DNA of 64,000 bases from a virus, in IMG/VR virus record IMGVR_UViG_3300009151_000041, positions 1 to 64,000 of that record. One strand, given 5' to 3'. Under the pieces are notes generated by a model that saw only the letters and a program-made list of their open reading frames with translations, did not search any database and was not told the DNA's origin. How positions within the stretch are numbered: position 1 is the first letter of the stretch; the number at the start of each line of letters is the position of its first letter. The translations under genes and the position numbers were made by a program. Below are positions 1-40,916 of this stretch, piece by piece.

Positions 1-536
1 ACATACAAGTTAAGAGTGGTGCCATCAAATGTGCCCACAATCTGATACCAGTTTCCAGGTGTTAATGTATATGCTGGAGTAGCTTGAAATCCCCCGCTAT
101 AATACCAGGCAGATAACTCAGTAGCACCATTGGTTGAACCCAGGCCAAGATTGATAGTGCCGCCGCCATACGGATATTCTGTGAATATGTTGGGTCCAGC
201 AGGAGTATTAGTTCCATCATAGTAATGCCAGGCTTCGATTGACCACGCGGCAAGTGTGCCCAAGTTTGTGGCGCTGGCTGCATACTGTCCTGACCCAGGA
301 TCAAACTGTATGTATCCACCGTTGGCACTGTTGTATGTGGGACCGTTAACAAGAGTAAATGTCATTCCTCCAACTGTGTCAGTCCATGTAGAGTAGCCCC
401 CTGCTCCAGGATAACTTGCTGGATTGCCAGCGTCTAAACTTAATACCACTCCGGCTGGGGCGGGCAATGGCACATTGCCCACTGTGATTCCGCCCTCTAA
501 TGTGATTCCGCCTTGAATTGTTACTGGTGCTACCAT
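1..536 (-). CDS. Tail adhesin with LamG/concanavalin A-like domain, 3' end outside window
   Basis: Starts at the ATG at 536 and stays open to the window edge, so the C-terminus is missing. The first ~24 residues carry the repeated tag motif seen in five downstream genes (here 'VTIQGGITLEGGITVG'). What follows reads like a LamG/concanavalin A-type jelly-roll: 'VVLSLDAGNP', an alternating Tyr/Gly/Thr-rich sheet pattern, 'WSIEAWHYY' and 'GNWYQIVGTFDG'. Such domains usually bind glycans or surface proteins, so a receptor-binding tip or decoration protein of the tail is likely (inference). A late promoter box lies 19 bases upstream. It is first in a row of adhesins on the same strand. Confidence 0.75.
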   Translation of the reverse strand, partial: MVAPVTIQGGITLEGGITVGNVPLPAPAGVVLSLDAGNPASYPGAGGYSTWTDTVGGMTFTLVNGPTYNSANGGYIQFDPGSGQYAASATNLGTLAAWSIEAWHYYDGTNTPAGPNIFTEYPYGGGTINLGLGSTNGATELSAWYYSGGFQATPAYTLTPGNWYQIVGTFDGTTLNLY

Positions 537-554
537 ATCAGTCCTTTATTTGAA

Positions 555-562
555 TATTTATG
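555..562 (-). promoter_or_regulatory. T4-type late promoter (CATAAATA)
   Basis: CATAAATA on the minus strand, 19 bases upstream of the ATG at 536. It matches the T4 late -10 consensus TATAAATA, used by a gp55-like sigma factor with no -35 requirement. The same box at similar spacing occurs before other structural genes here. Confidence 0.6.
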
Positions 563-605
563 GCAAATCAAACAAGATAATTTCTGACTCTGACATTTTT
601 TCAGT

Positions 606-1673
606 TTAGGCATAACACACTTCTGATTCCATGCGTTCTAATCTAGCCACATATTTGCTAATGGTTTCAATTGGTTGCTGTTGTTCACGCAGGCGCAATC
701 CATCAACCCACCGACTGTCAATATCAGCAAACTCTGATAGTGAACGCAATGCACGGCCGTCTTTCACAAACTTCATTTCGTTAATATCATACACATTGTT
801 AAATCTCAAACTGGTTAATATACCATTGGCATATAAATTCATATGATAATCCGTGATTACATTGTAATAATTAACAGTCTCATCTACCACAGTCTTGCCA
901 ATCAATGAGACTTCTTCGCCTTGTGCATTCACTGTGATGGTACCAATTGGGGTGTCATCAGTCATTGGATAAGTGAATGCTCCAGCTTGTTTGTTGAAGA
1001 TCCTGTGCTGATTGATAGTTTTAAGAGTCGACCCATCACTGAATGTCAACAGATTATAGCGAGCAGTTGTTTCTTGTTGTTTGATCCATAGCGGATGTGC
1101 AGAGGCAAATACACCATTATCAAAGTCCCAAACTTTGATCAAGTCAGACATTTGAATATTTTCAATGGCGGTTGTGCTTTCATCTGCCAGTGTGATCAAT
1201 GTGCCTTCGGCCAAACATATCTCTGGCATCCAACTCAATACAGTAGGACTATATGCAACACCTGCACTATTTACAGCATAGGCCAGCACATTGATTGTCT
1301 CACTAGGATATACAAACTCACTTGCACTAAAACTAATAGTTTGACTGCCAGTTAGTCCTGTTGTATAAGGCCCTGGACAACCACCAGTTCTAATGGCAGT
1401 TCTTTCTGCTGATGAACTTGATCCAGTGCAACTGTCTGTACTCAACGCATAAGTTGTTTGTCCTGGTAATCCGTAAATAACTCCAGTTTCAAGAACAGTG
1501 CTGCCACCATCATTGGTAATATTAAATGTTATTGATCCATTGGGATTGCCGCTGCCAAAAGAGTGTGCAGTGATATCCAGGGTGGGAATATTCACCACTG
1601 GGGGTTCTGCCCCTATATTGATTCCGCCGCCGATGTTGATTCCGCCGCCTATTGCTATTCCTGGTGCTGACAT
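606..1673 (-). CDS. Tail adhesin-tag protein with C-terminal Hint (hedgehog/intein) domain
   Basis: 355 aa. Residues 1-25 are the shared adhesin tag ('IAIGGGINIGGGINIG'), residues 30-150 a Thr/Ser/Gly-rich beta region, and residues ~150-300 a Hint domain. The Hint signs are Cys153 at its start ('EICLAEGTLITL'), a block-B 'TINQH' with His223, and a block-F-like 'YYNVITDYHMNLYANG' ending in 'ILTS'. Hint domains make an N-S acyl shift at the Cys and cleave or ligate the chain. The C-terminal His-Asn needed for protein splicing is absent (Thr-Ser instead), so N-terminal thioester cleavage or transfer is more likely than splicing. About 55 extra residues follow. It sits inside the adhesin array, so release or cross-linking of a tail tip is conceivable (inference). 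Confidence 0.8.
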   Translation of the reverse strand: MSAPGIAIGGGINIGGGINIGAEPPVVNIPTLDITAHSFGSGNPNGSITFNITNDGGSTVLETGVIYGLPGQTTYALSTDSCTGSSSSAERTAIRTGGCPGPYTTGLTGSQTISFSASEFVYPSETINVLAYAVNSAGVAYSPTVLSWMPEICLAEGTLITLADESTTAIENIQMSDLIKVWDFDNGVFASAHPLWIKQQETTARYNLLTFSDGSTLKTINQHRIFNKQAGAFTYPMTDDTPIGTITVNAQGEEVSLIGKTVVDETVNYYNVITDYHMNLYANGILTSLRFNNVYDINEMKFVKDGRALRSLSEFADIDSRWVDGLRLREQQQPIETISKYVARLERMESEVCYA

Positions 1674-1692
1674 GATTGTTCCTTGTTGTTAT

Positions 1693-2796
1693 TTAATTAC
1701 TGACTGAGTATAGCCAGTTGGTGCTGCTATCTGCCCCTGTTGCTACAAATGTGCTGGTTGCTGTGTTCCATACCACTCCCCGCAGGTATCCTACCGCAGC
1801 ACTGCCATTCAATAGTGTTGGCACACTCCAGTCAGTGCCGTTGGTTGTTGTTAGATATATTGGTTCGCTGGTTGCTCCCACTTGAAGTTGCCCAACTCCC
1901 ACAATCACACCAAATGGACCTTCTGCTAGTGATACTATTGTTGCAGCACTGGTAGAACCAGCCATTGTGACCGGAGAAGTCCATGTGGTGCCGTCTGGTG
2001 AGGTAGCATATGCAAGGCTGCCAGGTATGGAGCCAATTGTAATAAACAACTCATAGTAGTCTGACCATACGACTGATCGTGGCGGAAAGCCCGAGCCAGG
2101 CATTGCAGCCGCAGCCCATGTGCTACCATTTGCAGAGTAAGCATACCAAGGAGCACTATCAAATGAGTTGTATCCTGTCACAACAAAATTTCCTGCAGTG
2201 TTCACAGTTATAGCTGCACTAGTAAAGAATACTCCACTTGCAGCACCAGGAATAGATGTGGGTGTGGTCCAAGTTTCGCCGTCTGTGGATGTCATGTAAG
2301 CAGGAACACCGCCGGCCATTTGCATGATTGCTGCAAACACTCCGGCACTGTTAACTGTCAATGCCCATATATTACCAACTGTTGTGGAGCTGCATACTGC
2401 GGCAGTGGTCCAATTGACTCCATCAGCTGAAGTAGTGTATATAGGATATGAATTAGGATTACCATTGGTGCCAATTGCCAAGAAGTAATTGTGATAACTT
2501 GACCAGGTCACACGAGTTATGAATGTACTGCCAGATACCCTCAAAGCTGGACCAGTCCATGTGGCGCCGTCTCCTGACACAGCACTGCCAAAGTTGCCGC
2601 CATTATTGCCAACTGATACAATCAGTCCTGATAAATCAATTGCAGTGCCGTTGGGCTGCAGGAGAGATGTGAACGCACCTGAATTCATTATGGTGGGGGT
2701 GCCAAAGGTCACTGCTGGGGATGGTGGTCCAGCGGGTGGCGAAGTTATTAAAATTCCCTCACCAATATCTATCCCGGGTCCAATTGTGATTGTCAT
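1693..2796 (-). CDS. Tail adhesin, Asp-box beta-propeller
   Basis: 367 aa. The N-terminal tag 'ITIGPGIDIGEGILI' is followed by about six repeats of the Asp-box type S-x-D/N-G-x-x-W (SGDGATW, SADGVNW, STDGETW, SANGSTW, SPDGTTW, TTNGTDW), spaced roughly 45-55 residues apart. That spacing fits a six- or seven-bladed beta-propeller of the sialidase/BNR-like fold. The Asp-box is structural, not catalytic. I see no Arg-triad arrangement that would prove sialidase activity, so a carbohydrate-binding adhesin is the modest reading. It lies between the Hint protein and the GH19 lysin with very short gaps, as in one late transcript. Confidence 0.75.
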   Translation of the reverse strand: MTITIGPGIDIGEGILITSPPAGPPSPAVTFGTPTIMNSGAFTSLLQPNGTAIDLSGLIVSVGNNGGNFGSAVSGDGATWTGPALRVSGSTFITRVTWSSYHNYFLAIGTNGNPNSYPIYTTSADGVNWTTAAVCSSTTVGNIWALTVNSAGVFAAIMQMAGGVPAYMTSTDGETWTTPTSIPGAASGVFFTSAAITVNTAGNFVVTGYNSFDSAPWYAYSANGSTWAAAAMPGSGFPPRSVVWSDYYELFITIGSIPGSLAYATSPDGTTWTSPVTMAGSTSAATIVSLAEGPFGVIVGVGQLQVGATSEPIYLTTTNGTDWSVPTLLNGSAAVGYLRGVVWNTATSTFVATGADSSTNWLYSVSN

Positions 2797-2799
2797 TGT

Positions 2800-3414
2800 T
2801 TATGCTCCTAGCACATGTAGTGCGTGTTCTGTGTGGCTGATTCGATCTTCCAGGCCAATATAGCCACCATTGATGGCCTTGGTCAATCCTTTCACATCGT
2901 TGGCATCAGCAAATCGGTTCAAGTTGTTCTGTTCCCAGAACCAACAGGCTGACTGTGCTGCACCTTCAAATGTGGCTAGATATTCTGCTGCTTCTTCTAC
3001 TGGAATGCTGAGTGATCCTGCAAAGAATGTGTAATTGTCTCGGCCGGTCAACTGTATTAGGCCACGCCCGCAGTATCTGTATCCATCGCCAGACGATTCG
3101 GGACCATTGCCCATTCTGTTGGCGTAGATTCTATTGGCAATCTGTTCGGGTCGATTGGCATATTGTGCTGCCAAATCCCCAGTGGGAAAATACTTGGCAA
3201 AAAGTTTTTGTAGGCTGGCAGCCTTGTAGTTGAGATTTTCTTTGATGAAAACAAAGTTGCCTGACTCATGAGCGCACTGTGCAACAAAATGTGCCACTCT
3301 TAACGGTGTGTTGATTTCATAATCATCCAACAGCTGATCCAGTGCTTCGTGCCAGTGATCAATATAGGGATTCTTCACCATTTGTTTTAGTTGTTCTAGT
3401 GCGAGCATGCTCAT
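2800..3414 (-). CDS. GH19 chitinase-like endolysin
   Basis: 204 aa, a normal size for a single-domain phage GH19 lysin. GH19 lysins cut the glycan strand of peptidoglycan. Catalytic Glu50 is in 'CAHESGNF' and a second acidic residue, Glu59, in 'IKENLNY'. The family signature 'YCGRGLIQLTGRDNY' lies near residue 115, and the C-terminal 'LTKAINGG' is also typical. There is no signal peptide, so release depends on a holin that I cannot identify in the window. The gene is embedded in the adhesin array, 3 bases from the propeller gene. The ATG at 3414 has a weak Shine-Dalgarno, and a second in-frame ATG follows two codons later. Confidence 0.88.
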   Translation of the reverse strand: MSMLALEQLKQMVKNPYIDHWHEALDQLLDDYEINTPLRVAHFVAQCAHESGNFVFIKENLNYKAASLQKLFAKYFPTGDLAAQYANRPEQIANRIYANRMGNGPESSGDGYRYCGRGLIQLTGRDNYTFFAGSLSIPVEEAAEYLATFEGAAQSACWFWEQNNLNRFADANDVKGLTKAINGGYIGLEDRISHTEHALHVLGA

Positions 3415-3430
3415 GGTAGTTCTCAGTCAG

Positions 3431-3784
3431 TCACAGTGTGGCATCCACCCAAGATAGGGTATCTTCATCCCAGACATACAGTTTGCCATCTGTGGGCATG
3501 TCAACAGGTGCATGCCACAAGCAGGTTGATTCGTTCAGTGTCCAGCTCGCAAACGGCTGGGGAGGAATGAATGCGTCACGCTCGCTATCATAAACAAATC
3601 CTATGCCAGCATAATTCTTTCGCAATGGGGTGCCACCCAAAACATGCACACCGCCCCTTGTGTTATAACTGGTTTGAACAAATGAACTTGGATCGCCAAA
3701 CAATCCAGTGTCCACTGTTGGTTGATCTATCACTATCACTCTGGTGACAATGTTTTTTTCATCTATCTGTGCAAAATGCGACAT
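3431..3784 (-). CDS. Conserved phage virion-associated protein
   Basis: 117 aa starting 'MSHFAQIDEKNIVTRVIV'. Short proteins with this opening recur beside fibre genes in T4-like phages and are usually called hypothetical structural or fibre-associated proteins. It is Trp- and Asp-rich at the C-terminus ('LYVWDEDTLSWV'), with no catalytic motif. Position between the lysin and the glycine-rich adhesins suggests a late protein, perhaps an adhesin or fibre accessory (inference). Confidence 0.7.
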   Translation of the reverse strand: MSHFAQIDEKNIVTRVIVIDQPTVDTGLFGDPSSFVQTSYNTRGGVHVLGGTPLRKNYAGIGFVYDSERDAFIPPQPFASWTLNESTCLWHAPVDMPTDGKLYVWDEDTLSWVDATL

Positions 3785-3798
3785 TCTATATCTCCTTG

Positions 3799-4740
3799 TT
3801 AAATTGTTAAACTGCCAGAACTGGTAAAAATATATGTTCTGTATCCATTGGCCACACTCAATGACGGACTACCTGTGGTACTGGTTGCATTTGCATATGA
3901 GTCTGAGTAACGGATAATAACCACACCCTTGCCACCATTACCGCCAAAATAACTGCCACCGCCAAAATAGGCTGCGCCACCACCACCACCACCGGTGTTC
4001 ACAGTGCCATTAGTACCGGGACCGGTTGTGGTAGAAGAACCACCACCACCTGAACCACCTACTCCGGCCGTGCCGCTGTTGACTCCTCCACCGCCACCGC
4101 CACCTGCAAAATACACACTTGAGCTAACCACTTGACCTACTGAGTAAGTGGTGGCTTGTGTGGTGGTGATAATTGTGCTTGTGGTGCCTACACCACCGTT
4201 GCCACCAGCCGTGCCAACTGCATCAGCTCCTACTGCACCTGCTCCACCGCCCCCGCCACCAGAGTTACTCGAGCCACCATTTCCACCGCGATTGCCTGAT
4301 CCACCTGATGCACTGCTGGGTTGTAACGCATTTCCATAATGTGTAAGATCGGCACCGTTCCAACTGGCACCACCACCTGAACCACCTGCTGTGGCATTAG
4401 TGTATGGGCTGTAAAATCCACCTGTGCCGCCGCCAATGGCTGTAACATTGCCAAAACTGTTTGAAATAATTGAGTTTATGCCATTATTGCCGCCCCCGCC
4501 ACTAACCCCGGTGCCGCCAGCTCCCACGGTAACTGTTATTGCCGAACCCTGGGTTACTGAAAATCCTATGTTAGCTACATAGCCACCTGCACCACCACCA
4601 CCGCAACCTAAATTAGTTGCACTTGCACCTGAGCCGCCGCCGGCAACCACCAAGTATTCAACGCTGCTGAGCACAGCAACGGGTGATGTCACAAGTACTC
4701 CGCCGCCAAATACTACTCCGCCTGTAACTGTTATTCCCAT
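3799..4740 (-). CDS. Glycine-rich tail adhesin 1
   Basis: 313 aa. The tag 'ITVTGGVVFGGGVLV' is followed by 'VEYLVVAGGGSG', then ~200 residues of Gly-rich repeats with 'ITVTVGAGGTG', ending in 'GVVIIRYSDSYANATST' and 'GYRTYIFTSSGSLTI'. Poly-Gly stretches of this sort form polyglycine-II bundles in T-even gp38-type adhesins at the fibre tip, which decide host range. It is the first of three consecutive paralogues, diverged in the middle and conserved at both ends. The start follows 'GGAAAATATC', a leader shared by the paralogues. Base composition on the coding strand is extremely G-rich, which creates long proline-rich shadow frames on the other strand. Confidence 0.8.
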   Translation of the reverse strand: MGITVTGGVVFGGGVLVTSPVAVLSSVEYLVVAGGGSGASATNLGCGGGGAGGYVANIGFSVTQGSAITVTVGAGGTGVSGGGGNNGINSIISNSFGNVTAIGGGTGGFYSPYTNATAGGSGGGASWNGADLTHYGNALQPSSASGGSGNRGGNGGSSNSGGGGGGAGAVGADAVGTAGGNGGVGTTSTIITTTQATTYSVGQVVSSSVYFAGGGGGGGVNSGTAGVGGSGGGGSSTTTGPGTNGTVNTGGGGGGAAYFGGGSYFGGNGGKGVVIIRYSDSYANATSTTGSPSLSVANGYRTYIFTSSGSLTI

Positions 4741-4779
4741 GATATTTTCCTACGTTGTTGTGTGGTCATGTGCGATTTC

Positions 4780-5709
4780 TTAGAATGTGATTGAGCCGGA
4801 AGTGATCCATTTATACACTCTATATCCACCGCTAACAACAGGATATCCAGCTGCTAAGTTTGTGGTAGAGGTGGCTGCTGCAAATGAGTCGGCGTAGCGA
4901 AGGAAAACTACGCCAGAGCCGCCTGCTAGTCCGTTTCCGGCAGCTGCATTACCACCACCACCACCACCACCACCAGTGTTAGCAGATCCTGCTGTGCCCG
5001 GAGTGTCCTGATTTGCACCATTGCCGCCGCCGCCTGATGCAGGAGTTGTCCCGCCGCCGTAGCCGCCGCGTGTGGTCCCAATGTAGTGCCCGCCGCCACC
5101 CCCGCCGCCACCATACAATACACTTGATCCTGATATAGCACTGCTGGCAGCTATACCGCCGTCGCCGGCAGGGCCAGTTCCGGTTGTGTCTGCATTTCCT
5201 CCCGTGCCGCCAGCGCCACCACCACCACCACCTTGTTGGTGCCTTCCGCTAACTTGTGCGCCGTATCCTCCTGCATATCCTTGTACAGGAGGTCCCGCTG
5301 TGCCGGAACCGCCTGCACTGCCTAATACACCACTGGTCGGTCCGGATCCACCACCGCCACCTGAACCACCTGAACCACCTGCTTGATCTCCTATTGTACC
5401 ATAGTTTCCATAACCACCGCCAATAGCTGTTACAGTTGCAAATACACTGTTTGATCCAGGATTGCCAGTGGTACTGGCTGCAACACCTGTTCCGCCACCA
5501 CCAACTGTGACTGTGTACGGAGTGCCGAGAGCAATAGCAAATCCTGTGGCAGTTCTAAACCCGCCAGCGCCGCCGCCGCCGCCACCAGTTGACCCGCCTC
5601 CCGAGCCGCCACCAGCGACCACCAGATATTCAACCAGTGGCACACCTGACGGTAATGTCACACTGACTCCGCTGCCAAATGTCACTCCGCCTGTAATTGT
5701 TATTCCCAT
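4780..5709 (-). CDS. Glycine-rich tail adhesin 2
   Basis: 309 aa paralogue of its neighbours. The tag 'ITITGGVTFGSGVSV' is followed by 'VEYLVVAGGGSGGG' and a central Gly-rich domain with long Gly runs broken by aromatic or polar patches. The C-terminus reads 'GVVFLRYADSFAAATST' and 'GYRVYKWITSGSITF'. The C-terminal ~40 residues are almost the same as in adhesin 3, while the centre differs, as expected if the tip loops vary and the ends fold or attach. Likely role is receptor recognition by analogy with gp38-type polyglycine adhesins. Starts at the ATG at 5709 after 'GGGAAAATAAC'. Confidence 0.8.
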   Translation of the reverse strand: MGITITGGVTFGSGVSVTLPSGVPLVEYLVVAGGGSGGGSTGGGGGGAGGFRTATGFAIALGTPYTVTVGGGGTGVAASTTGNPGSNSVFATVTAIGGGYGNYGTIGDQAGGSGGSGGGGGSGPTSGVLGSAGGSGTAGPPVQGYAGGYGAQVSGRHQQGGGGGGAGGTGGNADTTGTGPAGDGGIAASSAISGSSVLYGGGGGGGGHYIGTTRGGYGGGTTPASGGGGNGANQDTPGTAGSANTGGGGGGGGNAAAGNGLAGGSGVVFLRYADSFAAATSTTNLAAGYPVVSGGYRVYKWITSGSITF

Positions 5710-5743
5710 GTTATTTTCCCATGTTGTTGTTTATATTGATTTC

Positions 5744-6634
5744 TTAGAATGTGATTGTTCCGGAAGTGATCCATTTGTACACTCTATATCCACCTGCAAC
5801 CACTGGATAGCCGGCTGATAAGTTTGTGGTGGATGTGGCTGCTGCAAATGTATCTGCATAACGAATAACCACCACACCGTCGCCGCCTGATGCTCCTCCT
5901 AAAGAGTCAATACCACCGCCACCACCGCCACCTGTATTTACAGTGCCAGCCACTGCACTAGTTGGGCTAATTGGGCTAGTTGCACCTGCACCACCGCCTC
6001 CTGTGCCGCCCGCAGAAACAGCACCGGTGTTATAAGAGCCACCGCCGCCACCTCCAGCATAGGTGTTGGATGTGCCTGTTATTGAGCTTGCAGTTCCCGC
6101 ACCACCGGTCCCGCCCTGGCCTGTGCCAGGAACATTTTGACCCACAGCACTGGCACCACCTCCGCCACCACCTGAACTGTAGCCACCAAGGCCACCGTCT
6201 TTGCCTTGACCAACTGTTCCTGTTCCTCCAGCAGTAGAACTCGAATTATTTTGACCGCCACCACCGCCTGAACCACCGTTTCTGCCTGCTCCAGCACTAT
6301 ATCCGCCACCACCACCACCTCCGGTAGAGGTCACACTAGAAAATACAGAATTTGTTCCATCAGTACCAAATTGTGTGCCAGACGCTGCGCCGGGACCGCC
6401 ACCGCCAACTGTTACTGTGATGGGTGTGCTGGCTGCTACCGTAAAACCTGTGGCAGTTCTAAACCCACCTGCGCCACCACCGCCACCAACTCCGGCACCA
6501 GCTGTATGTGCGCCCCCGCCACCACCACCTGCAACTACTAAGTATTCAACTGTTGAAGGTGCATTTGCGCCCGTAGGCGATGACAATGTCATTCCGTTGC
6601 CAAGTACCATTCCGCCTGTGATAGTCATTCCCAT
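5744..6634 (-). CDS. Glycine-rich tail adhesin 3
   Basis: 296 aa from the ATG at 6634. That ATG is one base after the stop of the o-spanin-like gene, and homology with the paralogues begins there ('MTITGGMVLGNGMTL'). Then come 'VEYLVVAGGGGGG', a Gly-rich centre with 'ITVTVGGGGPG', and the C-terminal 'GVVVIRYADTFAAATST' and 'GYRVYKWITSGTITF'. An upstream in-frame start at 6694 would add 20 residues that lie inside the preceding gene, so I reject it. Same inferred role as adhesins 1 and 2. Confidence 0.8.
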   Translation of the reverse strand: MGMTITGGMVLGNGMTLSSPTGANAPSTVEYLVVAGGGGGGAHTAGAGVGGGGGAGGFRTATGFTVAASTPITVTVGGGGPGAASGTQFGTDGTNSVFSSVTSTGGGGGGGYSAGAGRNGGSGGGGGQNNSSSTAGGTGTVGQGKDGGLGGYSSGGGGGGASAVGQNVPGTGQGGTGGAGTASSITGTSNTYAGGGGGGSYNTGAVSAGGTGGGGAGATSPISPTSAVAGTVNTGGGGGGGIDSLGGASGGDGVVVIRYADTFAAATSTTNLSAGYPVVAGGYRVYKWITSGTITF

Positions 6635-6635
6635 G

Positions 6636-6950
6636 TTATTTGCCTGCACTTTCAAATATCGTTTTCTGTTGTGAATACCATTGTATCCAAGCATCCAGTT
6701 TCACAGCACACTCATAGTAGCTGCTGTAGTTCACGCTGATGGTGTTACTTACTTCACTCAGCTGTGGTTGGTCTTTTATTTTCTGCAAATCCGGACAGGC
6801 CTGCTGATATGTAGCACCGGGTGCTGCCGGGAATGCCGCAGCAACAGGTACCACAGTGGCACATCCCCCACACATGGCCAGCATCAATAACAGCACAATA
6901 ATTATTCCAATTGTGATGCTGCGTTGTGCTTGTTCTTTTTGATCAATCAT
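6636..6950 (-). CDS. o-spanin-like lipoprotein
   Basis: 104 aa. A hydrophobic N-terminus leads to 'LAMCGGCATVVPVAAAF', where either Cys could be lipidated. The rest has 'FPAAPGATYQQACPDLQK', 'NTISVNYSSYYECA' and 'WIQWYSQQK', a pattern I associate with outer-membrane spanin subunits of T4-like phages. O-spanins span the periplasm with an i-spanin and fuse the membranes at lysis. The lipobox is imperfect (Met or Gly before Cys), so confidence is moderate. The start at 6950 overlaps the upstream stop by one base (TGATG). The i-spanin-like gene lies one gene upstream. Confidence 0.65.
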   Translation of the reverse strand: MIDQKEQAQRSITIGIIIVLLLMLAMCGGCATVVPVAAAFPAAPGATYQQACPDLQKIKDQPQLSEVSNTISVNYSSYYECAVKLDAWIQWYSQQKTIFESAGK

Positions 6951-7795
6951 CAGCAGTTCCACCGTCTACGAGCTTTGCAGATGGCCTTGTCCGGAGTCTT
7001 GCTGCATGAGATGCTGTGCATTTTCATTTGTCCACGGCTGCGTGAACAGTAGCTTGATCTACGCTTGGATGCCTTGGAGCCCTTCTTCAGCTTGGAGGGC
7101 TTGGTGGTCACAGCAGTCTTTAGTTTTGAACCCGGATGCTCTCTACGATAGGTATTCACAGCTTTTTGACTCATGCCGTCTGTCTTGTCACGCTTGTTGG
7201 CCTTTTGCCAGGCTTCAGATTCCATCAGTGGGTCAGATGTCACAGCAAACACATACAGCTCATCTTCTGTGAGACTTTCTAAATCCTCCCATACTACATC
7301 AGCATCCACACCATTGTGCTGGGCAATCTGTTCCACAATTGATTCAATCAGGTCAAATTCTTCAGCAAGTTCTGTGTGTTCCGCCACACCTTGCTGACCA
7401 ATTTGTACCAGCCATTCTAATTCGTCATCGGCATCTTTGACATTGAAGAATTTGACATTGGGGATTTTCTTGGCAGCAAACCATTTATTGGCCACTTTGA
7501 CCATTAACGCACGATGTTGTGGATCATTAACATCTGGTTCGTAGCCTCCTGTTAAGTTTGCCCATAACGCACTTGGGTTGCCATCCCTGTCATAACCTAA
7601 CAATTCACGCCACTGTTGTTGTAAGCGGCCTGGTACATACTGGTCTAACTCAGTATCACTCATCCATTCTTTACCGATATCAACAGCCTCCGCCACACCT
7701 TGCTTGGGCTTTTTACCAGCCTTTTTCATTGAAATAGCAATGGCTGCTTGTTGAGCAGGGTTTGCTGCTTCTGTAATGATATCTGTTACTTTCAT
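6950..7795 (-). CDS. Phage protein with DUF6321-like basic C-terminus and QGVAE repeats
   Basis: 281 aa. Residues 1-200 are acidic and contain two copies of a 'QGVAE' peptide, encoded by a 16-base identical repeat. The C-terminal ~90 residues are very basic and Cys-bearing: 'WQKANKRDKTDGMSQ', 'HPGSKLKTAVTT', 'SKLKKGSKASKRRSSYC', ending 'ARRRWNC'. That tail matches my memory of a domain (DUF6321) common in marine and freshwater T4-like phages. Its function is unknown, though the charge suggests nucleic-acid contact (inference). Overlaps the spanin gene upstream by 4 bases (7792-7795) and the lipoprotein downstream by one. Confidence 0.7.
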   Translation of the reverse strand: MKVTDIITEAANPAQQAAIAISMKKAGKKPKQGVAEAVDIGKEWMSDTELDQYVPGRLQQQWRELLGYDRDGNPSALWANLTGGYEPDVNDPQHRALMVKVANKWFAAKKIPNVKFFNVKDADDELEWLVQIGQQGVAEHTELAEEFDLIESIVEQIAQHNGVDADVVWEDLESLTEDELYVFAVTSDPLMESEAWQKANKRDKTDGMSQKAVNTYRREHPGSKLKTAVTTKPSKLKKGSKASKRRSSYCSRSRGQMKMHSISCSKTPDKAICKARRRWNC

Positions 7796-9743: not shown

Positions 9744-9868
9744 TTGGGCTCAACATGCCCTAACACCTGTACACAGTCCACAGCAGGATCTATTAGAGTA
9801 GAATCAAAATGATAGTTACTGCGTTTTTTTGATTGTTCCCAGTTGCTGATCATATTATTATATTTCAT
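9740..9868 (-). CDS. Small hypothetical protein, 42 aa
   Basis: Starts 'MKYNNMISNWEQSKK'. The ATG at 9868 overlaps the TGA of the TctC receptor by four bases (ATGA), which favours translational coupling. No membrane segment or known motif. I do not recognise it. The tight packing (receptor, 42 aa, 17 aa, P-loop protein, kinase fusion) suggests one transcript of at least five cistrons. Confidence 0.5.
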   Translation of the reverse strand: MKYNNMISNWEQSKKRSNYHFDSTLIDPAVDCVQVLGHVEPK

Positions 9869-10836
9869 TCTTTACTTAAATCAATCTTGCTTAGTACAGG
9901 AATAAAGGCAGCACGTAATTCATCCATTTGACGCTTTAGGCCTGCAGGAGTCAATTCTGATTCTTCATAAAAGATCACGTTGGCATCAGCATATTCTTTG
10001 TATTCTGCTGAACGCACAGCAGCTGAAAATTGCTGTTGATACCATTCCACAATGTCCGACCGTGTGCCCGGGGGCAGTTGAATTGACCAAGCAGCATATA
10101 CATTGATACCGGGCACCACTGTGTTCAGCAGTGGCACAGCGGGATACTGTGGCATGCGACGAGTGCCGGTAAATCCAATGGCCTTTATCTTGCCAGCGTC
10201 TACCATGGCCCTGGCCACTGCAATGGGCATGATACCAAACTCTGTTCCGGCCTTGCCGTCGTATGATGCCACACTTTGTACAGCAGCCACAGGGCCGTTA
10301 AACTTGATTGCTTTGACTTGATCCTTGTTGCCTCGCGCACGATCCATCAAGTATTCAAATGCAGTTCGGTGCGCACCGCCACCTGTGGCCACATTGATTG
10401 TTCTGCCGGACGCAATGTATTTCACAAACTCCTGCGGAGTGTTGATACCACTTGAGGGATGAGCAACCAGGACCAATGGGCTTTTGCCAATGGTCAGCAC
10501 GTCCACAAAACTGTCGTAATTGTATTTCTTTATGCTCTTTTCCCATATGTCATTTGTGACATAACTGCTCATGTGTGAAGGCAAATTGATAGTGTGTCCG
10601 TCTGTGGGTGCATCCAGGAATCGATTGTTGGCCACAACTGAATCAGCACCGGGCATGGGCTGCACAATGTAGGAGAATCCAGGATTGCGCTTGGCCACAA
10701 TTTCAGCCAGTTTGCGGAAGGCCATTTCGTTTCCTGCTCCAGGAGCATTGCCCACAATGGCTGTGACAGTTCGAGAAGGCTCCCAGGCCCAGGCTGCAAC
10801 GGGCAACAGGGCCAGCACAATGAATTTTTTTAGCAT
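9865..10836 (-). CDS. TctC/Bug-family periplasmic solute receptor 1
   Basis: 323 aa from ATG 10836, with 'AAGGAG' well placed. A signal peptide ('MLKKFIVLALLPVAAWAW', cut near residue 17) precedes a mature Bug fold: 'TVTAIVGNAPGAGNEMAFR', 'GYTINLPSHM'-like loops, 'VATGGGAHRTAFEYLM', 'VAAVQSVASYDGKAGTEF' and 'AIGFTGTRRMPQYPAVP'. Bug proteins bind small carboxylates or amides for tripartite tricarboxylate transporters. They are abundant in Burkholderiales and rare in phages. No TctA/TctB partner is visible, so the phage receptor would have to feed a host transporter or act as a decoy or sensor (inference). It diverges from typical TctC at the ligand loop ('GNAPGAGNE' versus the common PGGxxD). 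Confidence 0.85.
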   Translation of the reverse strand: MLKKFIVLALLPVAAWAWEPSRTVTAIVGNAPGAGNEMAFRKLAEIVAKRNPGFSYIVQPMPGADSVVANNRFLDAPTDGHTINLPSHMSSYVTNDIWEKSIKKYNYDSFVDVLTIGKSPLVLVAHPSSGINTPQEFVKYIASGRTINVATGGGAHRTAFEYLMDRARGNKDQVKAIKFNGPVAAVQSVASYDGKAGTEFGIMPIAVARAMVDAGKIKAIGFTGTRRMPQYPAVPLLNTVVPGINVYAAWSIQLPPGTRSDIVEWYQQQFSAAVRSAEYKEYADANVIFYEESELTPAGLKRQMDELRAAFIPVLSKIDLSKE

Positions 10837-10949
10837 GGTTGATTTCTCCTTAAATAGCATGTAAAATATCTCTTATATATCAAAAATTTCTATGAATACG
10901 GAAATTTCTTAATCAATGTCAAAATTTATCACACTGTTCCAAAATTTTT
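10837..10949 (-). other. Divergent intergenic region upstream of TctC receptor 1
   Basis: AT-rich gap between two divergent genes. On the minus strand a TTGACA lies at about 10918-10923, but the matching -10 (TATTCA at 18 bases) is poor. The Shine-Dalgarno AAGGAG for the receptor is at the left edge. No clear plus-strand promoter or terminator is visible. Confidence 0.4.
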
Positions 10950-19014: not shown

Positions 19015-19249
19015 TTAAAGTTCTCCAAACTTGTTTTTGATCACGTTCCAGTTGTTGCTGATCCAACCACTCCTGTTCAGGAGCATAGGTTGGGCATTTG
19101 TTTAGCATGTCTTCCAATGCAAATTGTACACGATATAAGTCTTGTTTGCAACGCCAAGTGGTAAAACCGTCCATTTTGGGATCTGTTGTGGCATGATAAC
19201 ATTTCTCGAGTTCAGAAACGATATCATTAACATTCCAATCAATTATCAC
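18992..19249 (-). CDS. Small hypothetical protein
   Basis: 85 aa starting with GTG at 19249, overlapping the stop of the co-chaperonin gene (GTGA). Mostly helical and charged ('IVSELEKCYHATTDPKMDG', 'EQEWLDQQQLERDQKQVW'). Unknown function, co-translated with both neighbours. Confidence 0.55.
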   Translation of the reverse strand: MIIDWNVNDIVSELEKCYHATTDPKMDGFTTWRCKQDLYRVQFALEDMLNKCPTYAPEQEWLDQQQLERDQKQVWRTLSAKTSNK

Positions 19250-19644
19250 GTGTGTTGCATGTGTGTGGGTTTGGCTTCCACATGAATGGCACCAGAGAAT
19301 GTTTCGTCTTGTGGCTGTTCGTCACTCACGATCAACAGATCATCTGGGTCAACTCTGCGCAAAGTCTTTTTGCCAGTTTCATCTTCTACATCAATGCCCC
19401 GAGTCCAGCGACCATGCGCCACGCACACCCATTGCCCTACCGTGACATCATGTTGTTCTGGTCCAACAGCATAAACCTGCCCCCAACGCGGGCGAATACC
19501 TGTGCTTTTGCCATTGTCGTTGAGCAACACAATACCACCAGTGGTAAAGCGTTCATCAAACGTCATGTCAGTCACAATGACTGAATCATTTAAGGGTTTG
19601 ATTTGATGTCGGTCAAATCGGTGTGCGCTGAACGCTGGTTTCAT
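19246..19644 (-). CDS. GroES/gp31-like co-chaperonin
   Basis: 132 aa. The single-domain GroES beta-barrel pattern is seen in 'IKPLNDSVIVTDM', 'TTGGIVLLND' (end of the mobile loop), 'RWGQVYAVGPEQHDVTVG' and the C-terminal 'VDPDDLLIVSD'. T4 gp31 replaces GroES so that GroEL can fold the major capsid protein, and a similar role is expected. The ATG at 19644 has AAGGAAAAGAAGG just upstream. Flanked by a structural-type small gene and the clamp-loader run. Confidence 0.8.
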   Translation of the reverse strand: MKPAFSAHRFDRHQIKPLNDSVIVTDMTFDERFTTGGIVLLNDNGKSTGIRPRWGQVYAVGPEQHDVTVGQWVCVAHGRWTRGIDVEDETGKKTLRRVDPDDLLIVSDEQPQDETFSGAIHVEAKPTHMQHT

Positions 19645-39941: not shown

Positions 39942-40916
39942 TTAAGGAACGATAGATTTGATTTTGGATCTTTGAATGATTCGAGTCCAAGTGTTTTGTT
40001 GATCTTGGTGCAACTTTTCAAAGGAATCTGGCCAATCATCTTGTGCAGGATCAATCACGCCTTTGTCGCGCAGTTCTGCAAATGCACGAGTCCATGCTGT
40101 CTTGCTGTCTGCTCTGATTTTGCGAACAATAGCATCGGGAGTTCCTGCGGAGGCCATGATCACATACATCTGGCGAACCACAAAACCGTCAAGTCCTTGT
40201 TGTGCCATTGTGCGAGTATTTGCAAATGCCGGCCACGGGCGGTTGTTGATCACTGCAATAACGTTGAACTTGCCCAAGGCAGCATTTTGCTCAATAAGCG
40301 CACTGGTAGGCGTCACAACAAAATCCAACACCCCACTGGACAGATCATTCATGATCTGTGGTGTGCCTTTGTACGGTACCGCAGTCATTTCTATACCAAA
40401 GTGATTTGACAGACTGGCGCCAAAAATGTGATGCGGAACACCAATGCCGGGCATGGCATAGTTCAACACCTTGGTCCGTGCCCAGGCTTCAAATTCTTTC
40501 AGATTGGTAACTTTTGAGTTGCTGTTTACCACAACAACAAACGGAGTAGCATCACCTAGATAGGCCACACCTACCATGTCTTTCTGCCACTCATATCCAG
40601 GATTACTCAAAATATGTTGAGGACCCAGGTTACCAGTTTGAACCATGCTTAATGTGTATCCATCCGCTGGCTCACTCAGCATGTGTTTGATACCCAAGTT
40701 GCCACCGCCCCCAGGACGATTTTCAACCACTACTGGTGTGCCCCAAATATCACTCATGTGCTTGGCCCACACCCTGGCAGCAATGTCAGTGCCGCCACCA
40801 GGTTGAAATCCAACCATAACTTTGATTGGTTTAGATGGCCAATTAGCCACTTGTGCAGTGGCAACTGCTGCCAGAAATATTGCAGATACTGCAACAAAAA
40901 TTTTCAATAGACTCAT
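39942..40916 (-). CDS. TctC/Bug-family periplasmic solute receptor 2
   Basis: 324 aa. A clear signal peptide ('VAVSAIFLAAVATAQVA') and textbook Bug motifs: 'WPSKPIKVMVGFQPGGGTD' (the ligand-binding PGGxxD loop), 'VVENRPGGGGNLGIKHM', 'PADGYTLSMVQTG', 'AMPGIGVPHHIFG', 'VPYKGTPQIMNDLSSG' and 'VVTPTSALIE'. Starts at ATG 40916 with AAGGAG. It is much closer to ordinary bacterial TctC than receptor 1, which suggests a separate and perhaps more recent capture from a Burkholderiales host. No transporter subunits are nearby. Co-translated with the PP-loop gene. Confidence 0.92.
   Translation of the reverse strand: MSLLKIFVAVSAIFLAAVATAQVANWPSKPIKVMVGFQPGGGTDIAARVWAKHMSDIWGTPVVVENRPGGGGNLGIKHMLSEPADGYTLSMVQTGNLGPQHILSNPGYEWQKDMVGVAYLGDATPFVVVVNSNSKVTNLKEFEAWARTKVLNYAMPGIGVPHHIFGASLSNHFGIEMTAVPYKGTPQIMNDLSSGVLDFVVTPTSALIEQNAALGKFNVIAVINNRPWPAFANTRTMAQQGLDGFVVRQMYVIMASAGTPDAIVRKIRADSKTAWTRAFAELRDKGVIDPAQDDWPDSFEKLHQDQQNTWTRIIQRSKIKSIVP

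Follow-up and report, generated by a model that had tools for sequence, protein, structure and literature searches.

A short N-terminal tag shared by six adhesin-type genes of a viral contig and by unrelated proteins of uncultured phages: a candidate docking peptide

Six neighboring genes at the left end of the window, the 64,000-nucleotide stretch of environmental tailed-phage DNA analysed here, encode proteins that open with the same short tag and continue into different modules. The tag recurs in more than 100 proteins of uncultured phages and was not found in bacterial genomes, and it is therefore probably a standard plug by which host-recognition parts are swapped. The explanation that we favor, and hold to be probable though far from secure, is that the tag is an N-terminal docking peptide by which exchangeable adhesins are attached to the virion, with long tail fibers as the most likely site. 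The virus contig is 103,143 bp long; the window covers its first 64 kb, and the rest was read as L001 and L002 (other loci also carry L numbers). The left end of the window is the contig end; the tag genes, all on the minus strand, extend from position 6634 down to it, and the gene starting at 536 is truncated there. The tag genes, their tags and modules, and the untagged genes between them are as follows:

3-536, minus strand: gene 1, LamG module; cut by the contig end
480-536, minus strand: tag MVAPVTIQGGITLEGGITV of gene 1 (profile of independent tags)
3-479, minus strand: LamG/ConA-like lectin module of gene 1, partial (Pfam PF13385, 7.5e-11)
1611-1673, minus strand: tag MSAPGIAIGGGINIGGGINIG of gene 2 (606-1673; profile of independent tags)
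606-1610, minus strand: central domain and C-terminal Hint module of gene 2 (Pfam Hint 0.028, alignment)
2746-2796, minus strand: tag MTITIGPGIDIGEGILI of gene 3 (1693-2796; profile of independent tags)
1693-2745, minus strand: probable Asp-box beta-propeller of gene 3 (five xDGxxW repeats)
2800-3414, minus strand: endolysin, untagged, between tag genes (phrog_181, 4.4e-75)
3431-3784, minus strand: phrog_7759 protein, untagged, between tag genes (1.8e-36)
4690-4740, minus strand: tag MGITVTGGVVFGGGVLV of gene 4 (3799-4740, Gly_rich_2; Pfam, profile)
5659-5709, minus strand: tag MGITITGGVTFGSGVSV of gene 5 (4780-5709, Gly_rich_2; Pfam, profile)
6584-6634, minus strand: tag MGMTITGGMVLGNGMTL of gene 6 (5744-6634, Gly_rich_2; Pfam, profile, AlphaFold2 model)

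An earlier note on this DNA had described six adhesin genes with one common N-terminal tag. All six start codons (536, 1673, 2796, 4740, 5709, and 6634, minus strand) proved correct, and each protein begins with the tag. A 15-column profile was built from 99 tags of other contigs, with the window and its close relative L003 left out to guard against circularity, and was scored at all 2,792 start codons of the 574 ORFs of the whole 103-kb contig. The six genes took ranks 1 to 6 of the 574 ORFs, with 38.0, 36.5, 30.5, 25.6, 18.3, and 11.7 bits; the seventh-ranked ORF reached only 2.0 bits, and no tag occurs elsewhere on the contig. Only one of 11,480 shuffled ORFs attained 15 bits at any position. 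The sharing of the tag by six genes is thus confirmed. The tagged run does contain six genes, but one is the truncated gene at 536 and two untagged genes are interspersed. The pattern given for the tag applies, although the general consensus is wider. As for the modules, LamG (Pfam, 7.5e-11) and three copies of Gly_rich_2 (1e-15 to 1e-22) were found as claimed. The Hint module is weak in Pfam (0.028), but 11 relatives all keep its Cys and His. The propeller of gene 3 is probable, judged from five Asp-box-like xDGxxW repeats, and Pfam gave no confident hit for it.

The tag consists of about 2.5 hexads, [IV]x[IV]GxG-Ix[IVL]GxG-[IV]x[IVLF]. A first scan of IMG/VR, using a DNA pattern for M-x-[I/M]-T-h-x-x-G-h-x-h-G-x-G-h-x-h with third bases left free, returned 48 stretches, which were mostly N-termini of real ORFs with unrelated continuations. 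The same pattern matched 40 stretches in 257 Gb of bacterial and archaeal genomes, where it identified membrane proteins and GM repeats and no tag-like protein. With a start-codon-free pattern and a profile scan, the candidates numbered at least 112, and at least 110 distinct tag proteins were kept. Across an alignment of 90 tag proteins, the consensus was conserved only at MxIxIGxGITIGxGI. Among the tag proteins listed, the core Gly-6 was present in 109 of 110 and Gly-12 in 107 of 110. Because the search patterns fix some positions, the degree of conservation is partly a product of the search; this does not apply to the N-terminal location seen in the second scan or to the free use of codons. 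The core began at residue 3 in 79 of these 110 proteins, and because different codons were used in 61% of their identical-residue pairs, the tag is conserved as a peptide and not as DNA. The search of other phage genomes, which the earlier note had proposed as a check, thus found the tag N-terminal in more than 100 phage proteins with at least 43 module families.

Pfam and PHROGs gave no dedicated model for the tag, whether it was searched alone or extended by a short piece of its module, and in NCBIfam tagged proteins matched through their modules only. Comparison of the tag with Hexapep_2 gave a sub-threshold match (0.059), and no match of the tag was found in the PDB. When isolated phages were searched by tblastn, the tag alone and the Gly-rich protein gave no match, probably owing to the low-complexity filter, so that absence of the tag from isolates is not proven; the Hint protein and the L190 fiber also gave no match in such searches. 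No convincing case of a tag naturally fused inside a long fiber was found, internal matches being mostly simple repeats or hydrophobic stretches. A signal peptide or lipobox was rejected as an interpretation of the tag, which has no basic start, no continuous hydrophobic core, and no Cys.

The regions behind the tag fall into at least 43 unrelated families by BLAST single linkage. Pfam searches of 90 tagged proteins assigned Gly_rich_2 to 26 and Laminin_G_3 to 23, with PKD, Ig, fn3, propeller types, DUF285, and others among the further modules. One tagged protein matches the GP38 tail-fiber adhesin from residue 28 on (1.3e-4, below the Pfam cut-off), and in another (L223:1181-3586) the tag is joined to a GTA head-spike-fiber domain (NF048003, 1.7e-45) and a second tag gene follows. 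The same modules were also found in other settings. A full-length LamG relative in L103 is 81% identical to the module of gene 1, and virion structural proteins of S-PM2 (1,058 aa) and Syn1 (1,357 aa) have the LamG module at their C-terminus. The Gly-rich module starting (V/I)(E/D)YL(V/I)VAGGG stands behind the tag in the window, L003, L281, L282, and L290, behind xFTFQNFxxxG in L009 and L199, behind MFAAKNFFL in L034, L042, L048, and L053, and behind GGxIS-type peptides in L014 and L183. In the window and L320 it is the tag that precedes the Hint module, and in L316, L318, and L319 related peptides take this place (e.g., MRITGGTKITGGITF); the module also makes up the last 206 residues of ~1,100-1,300-aa ORFs in L322-L325 and L327 and of a 585-aa fiber-like protein in L328. 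A module thus occurs in one of two forms, as part of a long protein or by itself after a short peptide, and the case for the peptide standing in for a covalent link is built mainly on this. Separately, at least seven genes of L009 and L199 have another shared N-terminal peptide (e.g., MFTFQNFNVSG) before the same Gly-rich module, which is probably a second docking tag.

Structures were predicted with AlphaFold2. The Gly-rich protein of gene 6 was modeled with a mean pLDDT of 89, the first 30 residues scoring 66-70 and the tag having no secondary structure, and a tag-LamG protein with a pLDDT of 77, falling to 44 and 56 in the first 20 residues; both are monomer models made from shallow alignments (19 and 22 sequences). 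Foldseek matched the Gly-rich model to Bxb1 tail-tip chains (7.9e-5) and the Pam3 fiber (9.4e-4), with low query-normalised TM-scores of 0.33-0.38; S16 gp38 itself was not among the matches. The LamG model (L103) matched ConA-like lectins, its best fold match being a cyanophage Pan3 tailspike chain. According to these models, the modules would fold independently and the tag appears unstructured despite its conservation. Since the models are monomers and the alignments shallow, an unfolded tag fits docking as well as trimerisation.

We propose that the tag, unfolded when alone, would attach to the virion by adding beta-strands at a site that is most likely on a long tail fiber, either at its tip or on a branch. 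The tag would be followed, often by way of a Pro-rich linker, by a single adhesin module that folds independently (LamG, Gly-rich, Hint, propeller, Ig/PKD, or others), and because the coupling is common, several modules could be carried at once and exchanged by recombination. This proposal is close to the docking strand for interchangeable tail tips put forward previously, of which module exchange and the fold matches to phage fiber and tail-tip adhesins speak in favor; the tail-tip location is one that we only infer, because the docking partner was not found and one tagged protein has a head-spike-fiber domain. That a single coupling peptide is common to many unrelated environmental tailed phages, with dozens of receptor-binding modules using the same virion socket and moving between lineages as cartridges, is a wider idea that we advance only tentatively.

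The neighborhood of the tag genes was searched for the putative partner. Tag genes lie at most 30 bp behind long fiber-like ORFs in L182, L187, L189, L190, L192, and L196, and tandem arrays of two to five occur in other phages (five in L190, four in L281, and three in L192). A second group is found behind an endolysin, in the window and in L242, L246, L256, L268, L290, and L306, and some tag genes adjoin tail-sheath or head structural genes (L003). The tag genes of the window sit in the lysis region, away from the fiber genes, which was counted against fiber docking. Fiber families with two recognisable N-domains were present within 6 kb of 14 of 80 tag loci vs. 1 of 63 controls, a suggestive enrichment that hints at the partner and does not identify it; that only 14 of the 80 loci had such fibers nearby was likewise counted against fiber docking. 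The C-terminal domain of the preceding fiber was rejected as a universal socket, being common to L187, L189, L190, L192, and L196 but not to L182 and L188. Tags within a genome were no more alike than tags between genomes (p 0.31), which lends no support to genome-specific tag barcodes and is more in line with a general connector; there is therefore no sign of coevolution with a genome-specific partner and no such signal by which to locate the socket. In six loci, mini-proteins of 48-53 aa, made up of the tag and a short acidic tail, are encoded beside fiber-like ORFs (L106:3358-3504; L238:4139-4291; L251:4330-4476; L263:1332-1493; L286:8074-8220; L301:2243-2392).

One outcome that the earlier note had named as fatal to its idea was a low-complexity start with no conservation in related phages; a related reading is a glycine-rich start that arose by chance. 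The composition of the tag is indeed simple, and GIGIGI-type repeats of some contigs fit the relaxed pattern; however, this pattern matched 45 of 50 records and its reversed control none, no tag protein was found in bacterial genomes, and the leave-window-out ranking and the shuffles also argue against chance. This reading is refuted here, the tag being a conserved N-terminal element under constraint at the peptide level. That the shared 5' ends reflect a DNA-level recombination hot spot or recent duplications, with no functional peptide, is highly improbable: although the window's three Gly-rich genes are paralogues and the DNA upstream of them is similar, the peptide is kept with free codon use across unrelated modules and is present in very different phages.

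Two further alternatives assign the tag a function. It could be a trimerisation or folding cap that has no docking role itself: a small beta-helix or beta-prism, assembled from three copies, would set the register of a homotrimeric adhesin. The hexad periodicity, the sub-threshold Hexapep_2 match, the strictly N-terminal position, and the lack of structure in the monomer model would suit this reading. Such a cap leaves unexplained why the same tag precedes at least 43 module families and leaves open how short single-module proteins reach the virion; we consider it unlikely, though not negligible, and a cap and docking can both hold. Alternatively, the place where the tag docks the modules might be the neck or the head (as capsid spikes or decoration) and not the tail fibers. 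L223, with two tag genes, one of them bearing the GTA head-spike-fiber domain, and the tag genes next to tail-sheath or head structural genes are consistent with this location, which we nevertheless think quite improbable given that several placed loci have fiber neighbors, that GP38, Pam3 fiber, and Bxb1 tail-tip matches were obtained, and that the spike-fiber domain may be merely another receptor-binding module.

Docking to tail fibers would have parallels in known phages. Short N-terminal peptides have been proposed to dock second RBPs on an anchor (K1E/K1-5/SP6 7- and 11-mers, KP32, KP34 MALxxLV, Menlow, and PhiK64-1 groups), and the docking peptide differs per phage group and can be only seven residues long (PMC6872550). 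By inference, the present tag would work like the K1-5/KP32 peptides. It too is short, lies at the extreme N-terminus, and is common to otherwise different proteins of one genome, as seen from the profile and the tandem arrays. Peptides of the K1-5/KP32 type are group-specific, and the modules that they link to a T4gp10-like anchor are mostly depolymerases. By contrast, a single hexad motif extends here over many phage lineages and at least 43 module families, and the anchor is putative; PHROG scans of the large structural proteins of the window showed no T4gp10-like docking domain.

A second parallel is the gp37-gp38 tip adhesin of T-even phages and S16, in which a separate adhesin gene likewise lies directly behind the distal fiber gene. 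A glycine-rich, PGII-like module of the gp38 type is present here as well (Gly_rich_2; AlphaFold2 pLDDT 89; Pam3 fiber fold match), and one tagged protein has the sub-threshold GP38-like domain. S16 gp38 attaches to gp37 via three short helices, and the glycine-rich domain of Pam3 has been described as receptor-recognising and similar to S16 gp38 (PMC9608196). Unlike S16 gp38, the tagged proteins lack a helical attachment domain, their N-terminus being the tag, with no helix predicted. The Gly-rich module resembles the Pam3 gp24 fiber and Bxb1 tail-tip chains Qa/Qb in fold, but Pam3 docks by a long N-terminal alpha-helical domain and has no such tag. The docking-peptide principle is thus known, and the breadth of this motif appears to be new; a limited search of the open-access literature yielded no description of the tag motif. 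If docking holds true, the tag would be a sequence handle by which host-binding proteins could be recognised in uncultured phages, whose genes of this kind mostly lack annotation, modular host-range evolution would be directly testable with a peptide of ~17 residues, and a natural standard connector between fibers and tips would be suggested.

The Hint module of gene 2 showed features of its own. Cys153, the candidate for the catalytic Cys, and His223 are the residues that are invariant in the alignment of 11 relatives. The Hint block reads TxxxH, not TxxH, and Pfam and PDB matches were weak, a Hint profile search giving a weak match to PI-SceI (E 0.094). In L322-L328 the Hint-like module always ends 206-207 residues past the Cys, at a fiber-like C-terminus, vs. 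202 in the window. Judged from these sequences, self-processing by a Hint-like module at fiber ends is possible.

Some other observations were made on gene content. Lysis genes (endolysin, spanin-like) are interleaved with adhesin tag genes in the window (2800-3414 and 6636-6962) and also in L242, L246, L256, L268, L290, and L306. The phrog_7759 protein was discarded as a marker of tag clusters because it is common in tag-free phages. By eye, window positions 9865-10860 and 39942-40916 encode two periplasmic substrate-binding proteins resembling the tripartite tricarboxylate (Bug/TctC) type, which are unusual for a phage. Also by eye, ClpS-like, Hsp20-like, ClpX-like, and GroES-like genes occur on this one phage contig (L002:1-342, 351-815, and 1338-2618; window 19246-19644).
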